A stretch of DNA of 43,155 nt from a bacterium (GTDB lineage Bacteria > Bacillota > Bacilli > Lactobacillales > Streptococcaceae), in assembly GCA_905221505.1 (NCBI GenBank), contig CAJNDL010000013.1, positions 1 through 43,155 on the forward strand, read 5' to 3'. Within the stretch, counting starts at the first letter, position 1, and each line of letters opens with the position of its first letter. The translations under genes and the position numbers were made by a program. The notes beneath the pieces are model-generated. The model worked only from the letters and a program-made list of their open reading frames with translations, was not told the origin of the DNA and made no database searches. Positions 1 to 12,008 of the stretch are shown here, one piece after another.

Positions 1-59
1 CTACCTGTTCGCTCACAATAAGAGAGAACTTTTTTACGAAAATCTATTGAATATGCCAT
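1..59 (-). CDS. IS630-family transposase, N-terminal fragment (runs off the window)
   Basis: Translation from the ATG at 59 begins MAYSIDFRKKVLSYCERTG, which I recognise as the start of the orfA-type transposase of IS630-Spn1 found in pneumococci. It is identical in protein to the copy at 43040, with a single T/C difference in this stretch. In IS630-Spn1 the transposase is usually split over two overlapping frames; only about 20 codons are visible here, so intactness cannot be judged. The upstream truncated gene reads into this ORF in frame. Confidence 0.8.
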   Translation of the reverse strand, partial: MAYSIDFRKKVLSYCERTG

Positions 60-107
60 AAGAAGATTATACCACATTCTGTACTGTTTTTGGTTCATTT
101 TACTATA
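1..107 (-). mobile_element. IS630-Spn1-like insertion sequence, one end
   Basis: The minus strand from about 107 down to 1 matches, with few differences, the plus strand from 42992 to the right edge of the window: the same inner sequence GTGGTATAAT, then the same transposase start. The element's outer edge is placed near the TATAGTAAA-like terminal motif (about 99-107). IS630-family elements insert at TA dinucleotides, which fits the local TATATA. Only the end that carries the transposase start is present; the rest lies left of the window. Confidence 0.8.
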
Positions 108-167
108 TATATTCCATTCTGAATTTGTAATGTCGAGGATTTGTTGCACATCATTAATTTTCATCAT
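108..167 (-). pseudogene. Truncated fourth gene of the peptide locus, cut by IS630
   Basis: An ATG at 167 lies 1 base past the stop codon of the MFS exporter, with GGAG about 6 bases upstream, so it looks translationally coupled as the next gene of the operon. About 20 native codons (MMKINDVQQILDITNSEW...) precede the insertion-sequence end. There is no stop codon between this start and the transposase ATG at 59, and the two are in the same frame (36 codons apart), so a fused reading frame runs out of the window. The original product cannot be recognised from 20 residues. By position it could have been the maturation, immunity or regulatory gene of the locus; this is inference. Confidence 0.55.
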
Positions 168-168
168 T

Positions 169-1395
169 TTACTCCAATTCATCATTTGTGAGATTAATTT
201 TAAAAATCCAAGGAAATACAAAGAGAAGCAAGAGTAGCACGAGACCTGAGAGAGTGAAAATAGAGGCCACGTTCATTGTATCAAATAAGAATCCAAAGAG
301 TAACATGCTTATTGGTAAAAATGCCTGTGTTAAAGCATTTAAGACAGCAAAAACTCTACCTTGAAATTCTTGTGGAATTTTGAGAATTGACCAACTAGAG
401 ATTAGTATATTGCATATTGTAATTGATAAACCAACTACAAGAAAATAAATAATGAGAATAGCAATCCAGCTACTTTTGGACAAATGTAAGATTAATAATA
501 ATCCCAGTAAGCAGGTTGTGAACGCAACCATAGCAATGGCATATCTAGCAATATTCAAATTACTTTTCGTACTTATTTTCGAAGCAATAACTGATCCTAA
601 TAAGAGTCCAAAAGCTAAGACACTATCGTTCAATGCATAAGATTGATTGGATAAAGCCAACTCTTTAATTTGAAGAAATGGGAGACCAACATTTACTATT
701 CCAAGTATGAAATTAATCATAAGGACAAAAATTAATCCAAAAACAATTTTTTTATATCTAAAAATAAACTGGAAACCTTCTTTAGACATTGTGAGTATGC
801 TTGAGTCATCTTCTGAACTTTCTTTTACCTTATGATGAAATTCAACTTTCCAATAGATTACTAGGACTAAAAATTCTATAAAAAATTCAATTAGCATGAT
901 ACTAGATAATGAAATTTTGTCGAAAAGAGCAACTGCTATTATTGGGGATAAAATCATACTAGCTGCTTGAATTAATTGTAATTGTGAGCGAAATGATTGA
1001 ACATTTTCCTCTCCTACCAACCCAATAGTAGCAGCATTTAAGGTAGTTGATAAAAATTGATCTGAAATTTTAAGTAAAATAAGTAAGACTATAATCTGAG
1101 TGTAATGGGATGTGATGTGAGTGTCACTTAGTATAAAGAACAGTAGAGCGAAACAACTGACGGTCTGAGAAGTTTTTATAATAAAATTTTTATTGTATTT
1201 ATCTATAATACTTCCTAAAAAAGGAAGGAGTAAAACTGCTACTATAGGTCCAATTATTTGAGAGAGGCTGTATAAAAATACAGAATCTAAGTTTCTTAAT
1301 ATATAAAGACCAAGGATAAAGGAAAGTATCGTACTTCCAAATTGTCCCAACGAATTTCCGATGAGTAATTGTATTTTAAGATATTTTTTTCTCAC
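169..1395 (-). CDS. MFS exporter, probable peptide or drug efflux
   Basis: This is a 408-residue hydrophobic protein with about twelve predicted membrane segments, the usual size for MFS exporters of the MFS_3 / macrolide-efflux type. It starts MRKKYLKIQLLIGNSLGQFG and carries a short charged loop IIDKYNKNF after the first segments, where the family has its G-x-x-x-D-(R/K) motif. I chose the GTG at 1395 because AAGGA sits 9 bases upstream. The frame stays open to an ATG at 1461, but that has no ribosome site and would overlap the protease by 86 bases. With GTG the overlap is 20 bases, consistent with coupling. By context it would export the product of the peptide gene at 2199-2318 or protect against it. 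The substrate is not shown by sequence. Confidence 0.8.
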   Translation of the reverse strand: MRKKYLKIQLLIGNSLGQFGSTILSFILGLYILRNLDSVFLYSLSQIIGPIVAVLLLPFLGSIIDKYNKNFIIKTSQTVSCFALLFFILSDTHITSHYTQIIVLLILLKISDQFLSTTLNAATIGLVGEENVQSFRSQLQLIQAASMILSPIIAVALFDKISLSSIMLIEFFIEFLVLVIYWKVEFHHKVKESSEDDSSILTMSKEGFQFIFRYKKIVFGLIFVLMINFILGIVNVGLPFLQIKELALSNQSYALNDSVLAFGLLLGSVIASKISTKSNLNIARYAIAMVAFTTCLLGLLLILHLSKSSWIAILIIYFLVVGLSITICNILISSWSILKIPQEFQGRVFAVLNALTQAFLPISMLLFGFLFDTMNVASIFTLSGLVLLLLLFVFPWIFKINLTNDELE

Positions 1396-2143
1396 TAATG
1401 ACAATCCTTTCTTTTGAATTGATAAAATAAATGGTATAATCTTGTAAGCTATCAGTTCCAAGCTTTACTTTCCATTGAAAATTAAAGGATCGTATAAATA
1501 TATTTTTAACGAGGAGTTTTTCTCCGCTAAATGTAAAAATCAAGTGATTTACTTTTGCGATTTTGTTCAAAGCAAAACCATTTATCCCTAAAACAAAGTT
1601 CATGCTCCGTTTTACACTTTTTTCACTGAGTCTAAAATCATCAGAAATAAAGGAATTATTGGCACCTAAATCTAGCAGGGTGTGATAAGAATTACCATTG
1701 TAATCTAATAAAACAACTGCTTGTTTTTTTGATATTATCGGAATACTTGCGACAGATTTTGGTGGTTGGATAGAACCTATATAAAAATATTTATTTTTAA
1801 AATCAATAGCAAAGTCAAAACGCTGTAGAATATCCCATCCAAGTACACCATCAATGGATAAATAATAAAACATTACATTTCTATCTTTAATCAAAAATTC
1901 AGTATTTGAGATAATTTCATTCTCGATTTTAATTTCTGGTATAAAATATGCATGTTGAATGATTTTATTTTTACCGACCCCTTTTACGAGTATTTTATTT
2001 GATAACTCTATTTGAAAGTTTTTTAAGTCTTTATTAGGAGCCAAGAAACTTTTTTCTGATCCGGTATCAACTAAAAATGTATAGTATTGTTCAGAAATTT
2101 TAATTTTAATTGTAACTAATTTATTTTTATAAGAGAATTTCAT
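1376..2143 (-). CDS. Retropepsin-like aspartyl protease
   Basis: This 255-residue soluble protein has two aspartyl-protease half-sites in one chain. The first is VDTGSEKSF, with Asp26-Thr-Gly; the second is LDLGANNSF, with Asp158-Leu-Gly. Between them is IDGVLGWDIL (98-107), the G-x-L-G-x-D hydrophobic motif that follows the active site in retropepsins. The pairing suggests a pseudo-dimeric protease made as one chain; the second motif has Leu where Ser or Thr is usual. No signal peptide is seen, so it is probably cytoplasmic. The open frame reaches 2260 inside the peptide gene, but the first plausible start is the ATG at 2143, just after a hairpin and with a weak ribosome site. Lying between a 39-codon peptide gene and an exporter, it is a natural candidate for leader removal. 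Confidence 0.75.
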   Translation of the reverse strand: MKFSYKNKLVTIKIKISEQYYTFLVDTGSEKSFLAPNKDLKNFQIELSNKILVKGVGKNKIIQHAYFIPEIKIENEIISNTEFLIKDRNVMFYYLSIDGVLGWDILQRFDFAIDFKNKYFYIGSIQPPKSVASIPIISKKQAVVLLDYNGNSYHTLLDLGANNSFISDDFRLSEKSVKRSMNFVLGINGFALNKIAKVNHLIFTFSGEKLLVKNIFIRSFNFQWKVKLGTDSLQDYTIYFINSKERIVISEKKIS

Positions 2144-2156
2144 AATAAACAAATCT

Positions 2157-2191
2157 AAAAATTTAGAGCTTTGATTATTCAAAGCTCTAAA
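2157..2191 (-). terminator. Terminator-like hairpin (attenuator) between peptide gene and protease
   Basis: On the minus strand a perfect 12-bp stem TTTAGAGCTTTG / CAAAGCTCTAAA with a 6-base loop is followed by five T. It starts 7 bases after the peptide gene's stop codon and ends about 14 bases before the protease ATG. Such partial terminators commonly keep precursor-peptide mRNA in excess over processing and export genes. Confidence 0.75.
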
Positions 2192-2198
2192 TACTATA

Positions 2199-2318
2199 TT
2201 ACCACTTGATTTTGATAGTAACTTCACCAAGTGATTCGATTTCAACCACAGAAGAATCAACTGAAAAATCAGTCAAAAGTTCGGCTTTTTCCATTAAATC
2301 TTCTTTATTAGATTTCAT
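2199..2318 (-). CDS. 39-residue peptide, candidate RiPP or signal-peptide precursor
   Basis: An ATG at 2318 is preceded by a perfect AAGGAGG 9 bases upstream and opens a 39-codon frame ending in TAA at 2199. It begins MKSNKEDLMEKAELLTDF and ends SLGEVTIKIKW. The N-terminal 32 residues are acidic (many Glu and Asp); the last seven are basic and end in aromatic Trp. A charged leader followed by a short distinct tail is how precursors of ribosomally made, modified peptides look. There is no Gly-Gly leader site and no signal peptide. It is the first gene behind a near-consensus promoter and is followed by a hairpin, a protease and an exporter. I do not recognise the family. The precursor role is inferred from size, order and expression signals. 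Confidence 0.65.
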   Translation of the reverse strand: MKSNKEDLMEKAELLTDFSVDSSVVEIESLGEVTIKIKW

Positions 2319-2348
2319 AAATTTCAACCTCCTTAAATTAATAAGCCT

Positions 2349-2376
2349 ATTATAAAACACTTTTATTTTTTGTCAA
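2349..2376 (-). promoter_or_regulatory. Strong promoter of the peptide locus
   Basis: The minus strand carries TTGACA (2376-2371), a 16-base spacer and TATAAT (2354-2349); both boxes are consensus. Transcription would start about 20 bases before the AAGGAGG of the peptide gene. A pair of direct repeats, TTCAGAATT at 2480-2488 and 2499-2507 on the plus strand (19 bp apart, two helical turns), lies about 105-130 bp upstream and could be a regulator site. Confidence 0.7.
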
Positions 2377-2559
2377 GAATTTTTTGAAAATTTAGACAAA
2401 ATTATAAACGAATGATTGTTACCTAGTTTCATTTTAAAGTTAGCTTTCACATTTTAATCACAGAATCTCATAAAAATAGTTCAGAATTGATTGATAATTC
2501 AGAATTATTAGTATATAATATATTACGAAGTTAGATTTTAAACTTAGGTGATAGAAGGA

Positions 2560-2723
2560 GAGATAGACCAACGGAAACCATATTGTAACCTAAAGACTTT
2601 CTGACTTCCCTCAATTTCCCTGAAGATACGAAAGCTAAACAGTGGAACTCGTGTCACATACACTGGTACCTTGACTGGATTTTGGAATTAAAAATCCTCA
2701 AGATACTTTCTTTTATCCTTTAG
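2560..2723 (+). pseudogene. Possible coding remnant upstream of the small secreted protein
   Basis: From about 2587 the plus strand has a stretch of roughly 45 codons without stops and without a start codon. It reads like protein (for example DFLTSLNFPEDTKAKQW) and stops at a TAG near 2721. Stops lie directly before it in the same frame. I read it as the degraded tail of a former gene at the edge of the AT-rich island, but it could be chance. I cannot name the parent. Confidence 0.25.
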
Positions 2724-2741
2724 TTTATAAGGAGAACACCT

Positions 2742-3005
2742 ATGAAAAAAACTGCTATTTCTATCTTTGCTCTCCTAGTGTTAGGAGTTAGCTGCCTGTT
2801 TCTATTCAGCCAGCAAAGCTATAAAAAAACGGTCGTTCAATACTATGCTAACGACCAGAACCTGCCCAATAGGATAACTTATAGTGAATATAGCGATAAA
2901 CGAGAAGCCAACTACGGTGGCACTCTAAACATCACGTCTATCAAACAAGCTAATGACGGAGTTTATGCAACCTATGAAGGGCAATTGACACCTCTCCAAT
3001 ATTGA
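2742..3005 (+). CDS. Small exported or membrane-anchored protein of unknown function
   Basis: An 87-residue protein starting MKKTAISIFALLVLGVSC, with an N-terminal hydrophobic segment over residues 5-24 that could be a signal peptide or anchor. A Cys at 18 is present, but the preceding GVS is not a good lipobox. The rest is polar and probably extracellular, with YGGTLNITSIKQ about two thirds along, somewhat like small YxeA/DUF1093-type secreted proteins; I do not claim membership. The ribosome site AAGGAG lies 8 bases before ATG. A hairpin terminator follows at 3015-3050, so it is probably a one-gene unit. Confidence 0.7.
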   Translation: MKKTAISIFALLVLGVSCLFLFSQQSYKKTVVQYYANDQNLPNRITYSEYSDKREANYGGTLNITSIKQANDGVYATYEGQLTPLQY

Positions 3006-3014
3006 TAAATTGAT

Positions 3015-3050
3015 AACCAGCCTGTCTTGATCTAGTCATGCTGGTTTTTA
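3015..3050 (+). terminator. Intrinsic terminator after the small secreted protein
   Basis: AACCAGC (3015-3021) pairs with GCTGGTT (3040-3046) and is followed by a T run on the plus strand, 10 bases past the stop codon. Confidence 0.7.
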
Positions 3051-3128
3051 AGTTCATTCTAAATCCTTACCTATTCTCCCCAACTGTGCTATACTTAATT
3101 TAGTACATTCTTTTAGATTGGAGCTAGT

Positions 3129-7553: not shown

Positions 7554-8483
7554 ATGAAAAAATTAGGTACATTACTCGTTCTCTTTCTTTCCGTCATTGC
7601 TCTTGTAGCATGTGCTAGCGGAAAAAAAGATGCAGCTTCTGGTCAAAAACTAAAAGTTGTTGCTACAAACTCAATCATCGCTGATATTACTAAAAATATT
7701 GCTGGTGACAAGATTGATCTTCACAGTATCGTTCCTGTTGGCCAAGACCCACACGAATACGAACCACTTCCTGAAGATGTCAAGAAAACTTCTGAGGCAG
7801 ACCTCATTTTCTATAACGGTATCAACCTTGAAACAGGTGGCAATGCTTGGTTTACAAAATTGGTAGAAAATGCCAAGAAAACTGAAAACAAAGACTACTT
7901 TGCAGTCAGCGAAGGCGTTGATGTTATCTACCTTGAAGGCCAAAACGAAAAAGGCAAAGAAGACCCACACGCTTGGCTCAACCTTGAAAACGGTATGATC
8001 TTTGCTAAAAATATCGCAAAACAATTGAGCGCGAAAGACCCTAGCAATAAGGAATTCTACGAAAAAAATCTCAAAGAATATACTGATAAGCTAGACAAAC
8101 TTGATAAGGAAGCTAAAGAGAAATTTAACAACATCCCTGCTGAGAAAAAACTCATCGTAACCAGCGAAGGATGCTTCAAATACTTCTCTAAAGCCTATGG
8201 TGTCCCAAGTGCCTACATCTGGGAAATCAACACTGAAGAAGAAGGAACTCCTGACCAAATCAAGACCTTGGTTGAAAAACTTCGCCAAACAAAAACTCCT
8301 TCACTCTTTGTAGAATCAAGTGTGGATGACCGTCCAATGAAAACTGTTTCTCAAGACACAAACATCCCAATCTACGCACAAATCTTTACTGACTCTATCG
8401 CAGAACAAGGTAAAGAAGGTGACAGCTACTATAACATGATGAAATACAACCTTGATAAGATTGCTGAAGGATTGGCAAAATAA
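7554..8483 (+). CDS. psaA: Manganese-binding surface lipoprotein
   Basis: A 309-residue cluster-9 substrate-binding lipoprotein. The signal peptide ends in the lipobox LVAC, giving lipidated Cys20. All four known metal ligands are present: His67 (PHEYE), His139 (DPHAWLN), Glu205 (TSEGCF) and Asp280 (FTDSIA). It captures Mn(II), and zinc competes. The start MKKLG follows GGAGG by 6 bases; the longer frame adds four residues without reason. A BOX-type repeat begins right at the stop codon. It lies 31 bases after psaC in the same operon. Confidence 0.98.
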
Positions 8484-9299: not shown

Positions 9300-12008
9300 T
9301 TACTCTACAGATTTCAAGGCTTCTAACATATCAACTTTTCTCAGATGATGATTGACAAAGAAACCAAGTACAGTCAAAATGATGCTTACTGCTGCTACTG
9401 GGATTACGTAGACCTCCCAACCTACCTGTGGATAAAAGAGAATAGTCGCAGGCGAAATCATTTGAATCAAAAACTGGTGTAAATAGAAACCTGAGAGCAG
9501 ACCAAGTACGATTCCCACAAGAGATAGTACAATCGTCTCACGGTAAATGTAGAGGGTGACTTCCTTATTATGAAAACCAAGCACCTTGATAGTGGAGAGT
9601 TCACGGATTCTCTCAGCCACGTTGATATTGGTCAGATTGTAAAGGATAACGATAGCTAATAGAACTGATACAATAACTAAGATGGTCATGGTCTGATTGA
9701 GTGAACTTGCGACCGAGTCAAAGAGTCGAATGGCTGAAGCATTCTGGACGACGCTAGACACCGCAGCTTGATTCATAAGCAAGCCTGCCTGCCTTTCGAT
9801 ACTAGGCGCACTAGTATCCTTTAGCGTAACCAAATAAGTGTTGGCTTGGGGTAGCTGTCCGTAAAGTTGCTCATAACTGGCTTGACTCATATAAATAAAG
9901 TGACCAACGTAGTTCTCAGCAATGGCAGCGACCTTTAGTTCCTTACCTTCAATTTCTAGTGTCTGTCCAGCCTTGACACCTGCCAGCTGGGCTAGTTTAG
10001 CTGTAATAACGACGCCATCGTTTAATGTCAGCTCCTGCTGATGATTTTGCAGATGGATAAAGGGTGTCAAATCCTCCTTCTCTGTCATCATAAGGGTAAT
10101 GGTCTGAAGGCCAGCCTTGCCTTTGAAATCCTTGTCTAGAGTCTTAGAATAAATTTTCTGGTAGGCTTGGATATCCTGCCCTTTCAACACTTCTTCTAGC
10201 TCTTCTTTTTCCTGATTGGTCGCACTAGGATTTTCAGAGACAATCATTTGATACTGTTGGATTTGTTGAAACTGTCTAGACGGAACTCCTGCTACAGAGG
10301 ATTGGATTCCCAAGCCTGCAAAGAGCAGAGCGACTGAACCTGCCACACCAAAGATTGTCATCAACATTCGCTGTTTATAACGGAAGATATTGCGGGCTGT
10401 TACCTTATGGGCAAAACTGAGACGACGCCAGATAAAACCGATGCGCTCTAGTAAGATTTTAGCTCCTTTGACAGGTGGTTTAGGCAGTAAAAGTTGGGCT
10501 GCTTCGTCGTGAAGTTCCTTCCTAGCCACCAGATAGGCTGGTAACACACTCGCCAACCAACTCAGACCAAGTGCCAGTAAACTATAGCTCCAATAGAACT
10601 GAATCTGGGTTTCTCCCACCACCATGCCTTTTGTAATGACACTTGAAATCACACTGGCTAGCAAATAATGACCAAGTATACTGCCTAGAGCTGTTCCGAC
10701 AGTCCCAGCTACTAGACCGTAAAGGAGAAACTTGGCGATAATATCCTTACTACGATAGCCCAAGGCCTTAAAAATCCCTGCATGAGTTCGCTCTTCATCC
10801 ACAAAACGAGTCATGGTGGTAAAGGTTACCATAGCTGCTACGGCATAAAGTACCACAGGAAAGATATTGCCCACTGCCCGAATACTGGCTGAAGCATTGC
10901 TGTACATGAGATAGCCTTGAACGCCAGGCATGGTCTGACGATTATATACTTGATACTTGGGCTCAGCCAAATCATCCAAGACTTGCTGATGTTTGTCTAA
11001 TTTTTCCTTTTCTTGGACTAGATTTTGTTCAGCCTGCTTTAGTTTATCTTCTTCCTTGCTTAATTCCTGCTTCGCTTGGGTAAGTTGAGCACGGACCTGC
11101 TCTCTCTGAGCTTGAGGCAGCAAGGCTAATTGACTTTCCTGAGCCTGTAAACGAGCTTGAGCAGTTGCTAAACGACGCTTGCCTTCCTGCAAATTACCCT
11201 GTGCTTGGTCAAGTGTCTCTTGCCCCTTATCGATAGATTCTTGTCCTTCTTTTTTCAAGACTTGCAGACGTGCCTTGCCATTATCTGATAAAGCTTGTTC
11301 AAGGTCTTCCTGATGTTGCTTGGATTTTTCTTCATAAGCTGATGAAAAGGCATTTAAACCTGCTAAATCTTGATATTTCAAACGACCTATATTGTAGACT
11401 TTCTGATCAAACTGGCTAGGCAAAATCACCCCGTAGGCTGTCAGAGTCCCACTTCCACTTCCTGAGTATCCCATATCTCGCTGGGAGAGGATTTCAGCTG
11501 AATCCACAAAACCAGTAATGGTAAAAGTATGGTCTTTTAAAGAGGAATGACTGCCTTCTTTTTCTTTAAAACTAATCTCCTGTCCTAATAGATATTGCCC
11601 TTGCAGATGACTGGCCAAAGCAATTTCCTGGTCTGACTGCGGAAGTCGTCCCTCTCTTAGCTGAAAGGTTGAAATTCGCTCTGGTTTGGAGTACAGCCGA
11701 ATAGCATCCTGGCCATTATCCATAGCCACATCTGTCAAATAGCCAAACTCGACCTCTGCGCCCTCTATATGTTCTAGTTCTTTTTGATCTGCTTGATCCA
11801 AACCATAGTTAGACATGACTGCCAAATCCAAGGTTTTAGCAGTTCTTAAATAGTCATTAGCTGTCTCCTCCATATTGGGGCTGGTTACTTTGAGACCTAC
11901 TAGGGCTAGAGAGCCCAACATCATCAATGTCAAAATAGATAAAAAACGCCCCTTGGAGCCTGTAAAGGACTGAATTAAGTCCTTCCAATAAGTTTTTCGC
12001 TTAATCAT
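9300..12008 (-). CDS. FtsX/MacB-type ABC permease with extracellular coiled coil
   Basis: A 902-residue permease with two FtsX-like membrane domains (about residues 370-480 and 775-900), a first membrane segment near 20-40, and a long extracellular region. Residues about 205-340 are Gln/Glu/Lys-rich with heptad character (KRRLATAQARLQAQE, KLKQAEQNLVQEKEK), a coiled coil. Such type VII ABC systems do not transport through the membrane in the usual way but transmit ATP-driven motion to the outside, moving lipids or peptides or activating hydrolases. The substrate is unknown. Start MIKRKTYW has GGAG 7 bases upstream and lies 1 base after the ATPase stop. A homologous pair is at this place in pneumococci. 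Confidence 0.85.
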   Translation of the reverse strand: MIKRKTYWKDLIQSFTGSKGRFLSILTLMMLGSLALVGLKVTSPNMEETANDYLRTAKTLDLAVMSNYGLDQADQKELEHIEGAEVEFGYLTDVAMDNGQDAIRLYSKPERISTFQLREGRLPQSDQEIALASHLQGQYLLGQEISFKEKEGSHSSLKDHTFTITGFVDSAEILSQRDMGYSGSGSGTLTAYGVILPSQFDQKVYNIGRLKYQDLAGLNAFSSAYEEKSKQHQEDLEQALSDNGKARLQVLKKEGQESIDKGQETLDQAQGNLQEGKRRLATAQARLQAQESQLALLPQAQREQVRAQLTQAKQELSKEEDKLKQAEQNLVQEKEKLDKHQQVLDDLAEPKYQVYNRQTMPGVQGYLMYSNASASIRAVGNIFPVVLYAVAAMVTFTTMTRFVDEERTHAGIFKALGYRSKDIIAKFLLYGLVAGTVGTALGSILGHYLLASVISSVITKGMVVGETQIQFYWSYSLLALGLSWLASVLPAYLVARKELHDEAAQLLLPKPPVKGAKILLERIGFIWRRLSFAHKVTARNIFRYKQRMLMTIFGVAGSVALLFAGLGIQSSVAGVPSRQFQQIQQYQMIVSENPSATNQEKEELEEVLKGQDIQAYQKIYSKTLDKDFKGKAGLQTITLMMTEKEDLTPFIHLQNHQQELTLNDGVVITAKLAQLAGVKAGQTLEIEGKELKVAAIAENYVGHFIYMSQASYEQLYGQLPQANTYLVTLKDTSAPSIERQAGLLMNQAAVSSVVQNASAIRLFDSVASSLNQTMTILVIVSVLLAIVILYNLTNINVAERIRELSTIKVLGFHNKEVTLYIYRETIVLSLVGIVLGLLSGFYLHQFLIQMISPATILFYPQVGWEVYVIPVAAVSIILTVLGFFVNHHLRKVDMLEALKSVE

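Follow-up and report, generated by a model that had tools for sequence, protein, structure and literature searches.

Among enzymes resembling trans-isoprenyl diphosphate synthases (trans-IDS), passages of a 2026 review name ComQ, ChrPC and PalQ as acting on peptides, and all the characterised ones are said there to target tryptophan (PMC13290415). In the passages of the PalQ study drawn on here, the Paenibacillus alvei enzyme prenylates the C-terminal Trp of its precursor PalX, and extra C-terminal alanines abolish activity; the motif residues are D89/D93, Q197 and D200/D204, the cluster includes a histidine kinase gene, and the protease of ComX is called unknown (PMC10853753). Here we describe a related arrangement at one end of a 43,155-nucleotide stretch of DNA from a member of the Streptococcaceae (assembly GCA_905221505.1, contig CAJNDL010000013.1; the whole stretch is termed the window). 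On the minus strand, positions 1-2376 carry a promoter, a ribosome site, a 39-codon frame, a hairpin, a protease gene, a major facilitator superfamily (MFS) transporter gene and the beginning of a fourth. Sequence comparison and a structural model suggest, with a probability of about two in three, a locus for a ribosomally synthesised and post-translationally modified peptide (RiPP), a short product with a prenylated C-terminal tryptophan that would be a variant of the ComX/PalX kind, made with the help of an unusual protease and exporter. A preliminary description of the same DNA had listed these features, and all are present on that single strand. Its proposal of a peptide-production locus is also supported, with the enzyme now seen whole in a relative; the probable prenylation and the interruption of the fourth gene lay beyond its view.

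A genome scan with the protease gave two loci, one of which, in Streptococcus mitis SK642 (L001), has the full set, arranged as in the window: peptide, protease, MFS transporter and a fourth protein of 280 amino acids (L001 9980-10822). The presence of the complete set in SK642 shows that the locus is not a chance assembly; it is real and mostly unannotated. The predicted model of the SK642 enzyme has a confident trans-IDS (isoprenoid synthase) fold and resembles a tryptophan prenyltransferase of the trans-IDS type, which supports the earlier suggestion that the truncated fourth gene encodes the modifying enzyme. The motifs DxxxD and QxxDDxxD are found in 11 of 11 aligned sequences of the family, GGKxxRP and RRG in none of them. 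Throughout these sequences, down to 39% identity, neither the first motif's outer Asp nor any Asp of the second varies. The chain-elongating synthase of the host carries GGKxxRP and RRG, and the genome has an IspA-type synthase.

What became of this gene in the window strain? Its first codons, those of a putative tryptophan prenyltransferase, lie at 105-167 (minus strand), and homology to SK642 extends no further than base 105. What remains of the stub matches P0048 at 30 of 37 positions, across its junction and the beginning of its transposase; P0048 is a fourth gene that is joined to an element at a different point, and it carries PF01710 (which we take to be HTH_Tnp_IS630), PF13518 and PF12728. 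Because the homology ends there and the remainder matches P0048, the gene is, on this sequence evidence, broken by an IS630-type element, the end of which occupies 1-110 (minus strand; boundary within a few bases), and the P0048 match indicates that the same gene has been struck at a second point elsewhere. A truncated fourth gene is thus present as first described, but it is not merely cut by the window edge.

How does the streptococcal locus compare with PalXQ? In both, one short locus encodes a precursor whose last residue is Trp together with a member of the isoprenoid synthase superfamily, and the spacing of the motifs DxxxD and QxxDxxxD agrees between the two enzymes. PalX, however, has an NHLP leader and the kinase PalP as a neighbour, whereas the streptococcal precursor is 39 residues long and belongs to no known family; the streptococcal locus adds protease and MFS genes, has no adjoining kinase, and its enzyme gives no significant family match to PalQ. 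When the two enzyme families are aligned they are colinear, with the motifs in register, and the score is 30.9 over 216 columns (150 column shuffles: mean 14.8, maximum 24.3). The 23 PalQ enzymes behind this score were chosen by a motif-containing pattern, so that their motif counts are uninformative. A PalQ set picked by homology (phmmer, two seeds; 24 of 30 loci, which yielded 23 full-length enzymes plus a fragment) scored 31.1 over 207 columns, and both motifs occur in 23 of 23 enzymes. The alignment is evidence that the motifs are in register; it does not prove that the enzymes form one family. In the 30 best PalX-PalQ loci (L023-L052) the precursor Trp is last in 17, penultimate in 12 and third from last in one, 26 ends having been parsed by script and four by eye. 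Within one Bacilli family, apparently the Paenibacillaceae, 170 of 197 genomes have the NHLP family; NHLP precursors whose Trp is terminal or lies one or two residues from the end are common there and mostly adjoin PalQ-type enzymes.

The streptococcal precursor gene (2199-2318, minus strand) encodes MKSNKEDLMEKAELLTDFSVDSSVVEIESLGEVTIKIKW, a peptide with a C-terminal Trp. Between the window and SK642, 113 of 117 bases are identical; two of the differences are synonymous, two alter an amino acid and none introduces a stop, and both peptides end in KIKW. The 39-codon frame of the preliminary description, read from 2318 to 2199, is therefore kept in SK642, the other intact locus read; it is missing in two relic loci described below. 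A search with a 53-residue open frame gave four protein clusters, of which P0052, P0053 and P0055 end in KIKW. A terminal Trp is uncommon by chance: it closes 7 of 182 window frames of at least 30 amino acids, the peptide counted, and 1 of 36 frames of at least 150. P0055 represents 199 contigs and the intact enzyme P0010 represents 226, similar totals, though of contigs that may differ. Neither the window nor the SK642 peptide matched Pfam PF05952, the ComX family, and the window peptide had no NCBIfam match, the NHLP leader TIGR03793 included. The peptide tail VTIKIK (2202-2222) is repeated exactly in an N-terminal strand of the protease, LVTIKIKI (2096-2119). Of 3000 shuffled peptides, one matched the protease over at least six consecutive residues; the repeat was noticed after the fact. 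SK642 has ITIKIK at the peptide tail, and the protease P0004 retains VTIKIKI. Mimicry of the protease's own strand is one possible source of the repeat, composition another.

ComQXPA of Bacillus is the other close parallel. It too has an enzyme with the isoprenoid synthase fold and a small precursor with Trp near the C-terminus (ComX frames in L007, L008, L010 and L011). The two enzymes differ in their motifs: in ComQ, recovered from six of the nine ComX loci fetched, DDxxD is found in 6/6 and QxxDDxxD in 1/6, and the streptococcal enzyme shows the reverse, 0/11 and 11/11. Membership of ComQXPA was rejected, as the streptococcal locus has neither a PF05952 match nor a ComP or ComA gene beside it. 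Passages of a ComQXPA census contain neither 'streptococc' nor Lactobacillales nor Gemella (PMC4008528). The Trp farnesyltransferase Ord1 (PDB 9v4i) is unlike the streptococcal enzyme in that its substrate, according to passages of the 2026 review, is free Trp (PMC13290415). RaS-RiPP and SHP/Rgg systems resemble the locus in placing short streptococcal peptides next to processing genes; the locus, however, has no radical SAM (S-adenosylmethionine) enzyme, its protease and transporter belonging to other families and its fourth protein having a different fold, and no Rgg gene was seen adjoining. As the preliminary description had stated, it also has no lanthionine synthetase and no C39 peptidase-exporter, and the RaS-RiPP, lanthipeptide, C39-exporter and SHP/Rgg readings were dropped for want of any such gene. 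In passages of a further review the words 'prenyl', 'aspartyl', 'aspartic' and 'MFS' are absent (PMC13361665), and searches confined to open-licence PMC papers listed no report of such a streptococcal locus.

Downstream of the peptide lies the gene for a retropepsin-like aspartyl protease of 255 amino acids (1376-2143, minus strand; 729 of 768 bases identical in SK642), with DTGS at residues 26-29 and DLGAN at 158-162. It exceeds the Pfam cut-offs for PF13650 (38 bits; cut-off 24.3), PF00077 (33.9) and PF13975 (32.1), and DTGS and DLGAN are invariant across five aligned sequences. The retropepsin-like assignment of the preliminary description fits these matches and motifs; its two lobes would fit the two sequence motifs, of which the second is DLG, but the AlphaFold2 model is poor (pLDDT 53). 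The position of the gene suggests leader cleavage of a retropepsin type, and passages of a review of RiPP leader proteases contain none of the terms 'aspartic protease', 'aspartyl protease', 'aspartic peptidase' and 'retropepsin' (PMC10885120). The MFS gene noted earlier is likewise present (169-1398, minus strand; 409 amino acids; PF07690, E 1.3e-24; 1211 of 1230 bases identical in SK642). The protein reaches no NCBIfam cut-off. It is a probable exporter and perhaps an immunity protein too.

The expression signals are as first described. The promoter, TTGACA-16-TATAAT (2349-2376, minus strand), matches the sigma-70 consensus at 12 of 12 positions, and in SK642 its spacer is one base longer. 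Promoter-like sites in 3.2 kb numbered 18 against 16.3 expected, the sole 12/12 site being that at 2376-2349. A perfect Shine-Dalgarno sequence, AAGGAGG (2328-2334, minus strand), precedes the peptide ATG; SK642 has AAGTAGG in its place (L001 7812-7822), and expression of the peptide may differ between strains. Between the peptide and protease genes is a terminator-like hairpin of 14 pairs with a T-rich run (2161-2192, minus strand; -17.3 kcal/mol, z -4.8; 0 of 200 shuffles equally stable), in a spacer identical to that of SK642 at 58 of 58 bases. A loose scan for terminator-like sites found one, against 1.1 expected. The hairpin probably keeps the precursor mRNA in excess.

The locus appears to be an accessory insertion. 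As noted in the preliminary description, it is more AT-rich than the genes beyond it (GC 0.29-0.31 across 1-3000 against 0.36-0.47 in later kilobases). In genome G169, which its match to L002 places in Streptococcus pseudopneumoniae, the corresponding site, flanked by rel and a gene for 87 amino acids, is empty (L054): homology on the rel side breaks off at SK642 11252 and picks up again on the other side at 7684, and the two points adjoin. Because these flanks adjoin, the alignment indicates that SK642 has an insertion of about 3.57 kb beside rel. The window shares the near junction, the near flank being 2377-2460, with homology to the empty site beginning at 2460; the rel side of the insertion falls outside the window's end. 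The rel-side site (window 2460-3100; L054 about 4340) varies by strain, with a prenyl-peptide locus, a repeat gene or nothing; in genome G001 (L053 3804-5581) it holds a different gene with, by eye, choline-binding-type repeats.

Two relics of the locus were also found. L002, at another place in G169, has a promoter piece, no peptide, a protease tail, an open MFS frame of 411 amino acids and a truncated enzyme. L018, in G1131 of another Lactobacillales genus, has an open MFS frame (61% identity), a protease tail only and an internally deleted enzyme, and no peptide follows a stretch that looks, by eye, promoter- and RBS-like (ribosome-binding-site-like). That stretch enters mid-protease (9700-10100), as if the peptide and first lobe had been deleted together. 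The co-conservation of peptide and protease proposed earlier is borne out in a small sample, an intact protease accompanying the peptide in two of two loci and a truncated one being without it in two of two. In L002 and L018 alike the MFS frame remains open, as it does in SK642 and in the window; in the window, though, the peptide and protease frames are open as well. Its survival in the relics fits an immunity role but could also reflect chance or recency.

Genome searches with the enzyme alignment, in overlapping samples, gave matches in 2 of 284 genomes of the genus, 4 of 395 of the order (the genus pair, G1131 and G1056), none of 398 of the class and 1 of 398 of the phylum (L005); G1131's genus gave 1 of 2 and its family 2 of 76. 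The phylum match, in G458 (E 1e-4), was judged chance, its frame resembling a U32-type peptidase by eye, as was that in G1056 (E 7.5e-4, one internal stop), which has no significant locus neighbour. The distant relatives, P0041-P0051, include Gemella. No relative of the enzyme was found in IMG/VR, in plasmids (queries P0005 and P0051) or in phages (query P0047).

Several observations weigh against a prenylated C-terminal Trp. The fourth peptide cluster, P0054, ends in KIK, without Trp, and it may share a locus with an intact enzyme, P0038, as the longest contigs of both are 11,789. The enzyme has no Pfam or NCBIfam match over cut-off, and thus no sequence family link to ComQ or PalQ; hhalign gives probabilities of just 14% to PalQ and 12% to ComQ. 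An alignment to ComQ scores 30.3 and also beats 150 shuffles (maximum 21.3), yet off register and over 56 columns, so that PalQ is not distinguished by its score alone. The first motif reads D[KNH]xxD, never DDxxD. Host IspA, too, has a Gln ahead of the second motif (QVRDD), and this residue therefore cannot separate Trp transferases from elongating synthases. In passages of the PalQ study a D200A/D204A double mutant stayed active (PMC10853753), which makes those Asp residues weak evidence for function.

Could the fourth enzyme be a terpene synthase or a small-molecule prenyltransferase, with the MFS protein exporting its product and the 39-codon frame a separate small gene? The class I isoprenoid synthase fold and its motifs suit terpene cyclases as well, and MFS proteins frequently export small molecules. 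No second isoprenoid gene, however, is found among the frames of the 3.6-kb insertion, and the protease and the Trp-ending peptide would be left unexplained; we regard this as unlikely. A pseudoenzyme that merely binds the peptide, which would be processed and exported unprenylated, would account for the P0054 variant and for a first aspartate motif without its second Asp, but the invariance of the remaining motif Asp residues makes it very improbable. It is also highly unlikely that the 39-codon frame is an attenuation leader for a protease-MFS-enzyme operon. A stable hairpin with a T-rich run does follow it immediately; hairpins are, however, common after RiPP precursor genes, no regulatory codon is repeated in a row within the 39, SK642 retains the frame and two of its four differences there are synonymous, and the peptide ends in Trp next to an enzyme of prenyltransferase fold.

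A prenylated product might also be a ComX-like signalling pheromone with its receptor elsewhere in the genome. This is a variant of the prenylated-tryptophan reading, and their odds overlap; signalling as such is possible, at distinctly less than even odds. In its favour, ComX itself acts as a pheromone, and a histidine kinase gene belongs to the PalX cluster in the passages cited above (PMC10853753). No kinase or regulator, however, was seen by eye among the SK642 frames in or beside the insertion (L001 4500-14500), and a Pfam scan of six flanking genes, two of them without a match, gave no ComP kinase or ComA regulator. The open MFS frames of the two relics, where peptide and enzyme are lost, are as would be expected of a self-protection gene.

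If the product is a peptide with a prenylated C-terminal Trp, the fourth enzyme would take a host-made prenyl diphosphate, metal-held via D87/D91 and the D201-D209 region, and transfer the prenyl group onto the Trp39 indole; a ring would probably close in the process, as it does in ComX and PalX. The protease would remove the acidic leader to leave a short basic tail such as VTIKIKW, and the MFS protein would export the lipopeptide and perhaps shield the producing cell as well. The product may act on neighbouring bacteria as a bacteriocin, which is slightly preferred, or as a pheromone; the lean to killing comes from the lack of an adjoining receptor gene and the survival of the MFS frame in relics. 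In the window strain the prenylation step would have been lost, because the IS630-type element interrupts the enzyme gene.

More tentatively, and at somewhat less than even odds, these loci may represent a class of prenylated RiPPs found in oral streptococci and in Gemella, with a new precursor family lacking the NHLP or ComX leader, new C-terminal-Trp prenyltransferases, a retropepsin-type leader peptidase and MFS export and immunity. Strains that lost the enzyme by insertion or deletion would then be immune non-producers. The locus is small, and the intact strain SK642 is public. If the interpretation is true, the locus would provide a new enzyme family for site-specific Trp lipidation, with its own precursor, dedicated protease and own exporter, and a lipopeptide from bacteria of the human mouth.

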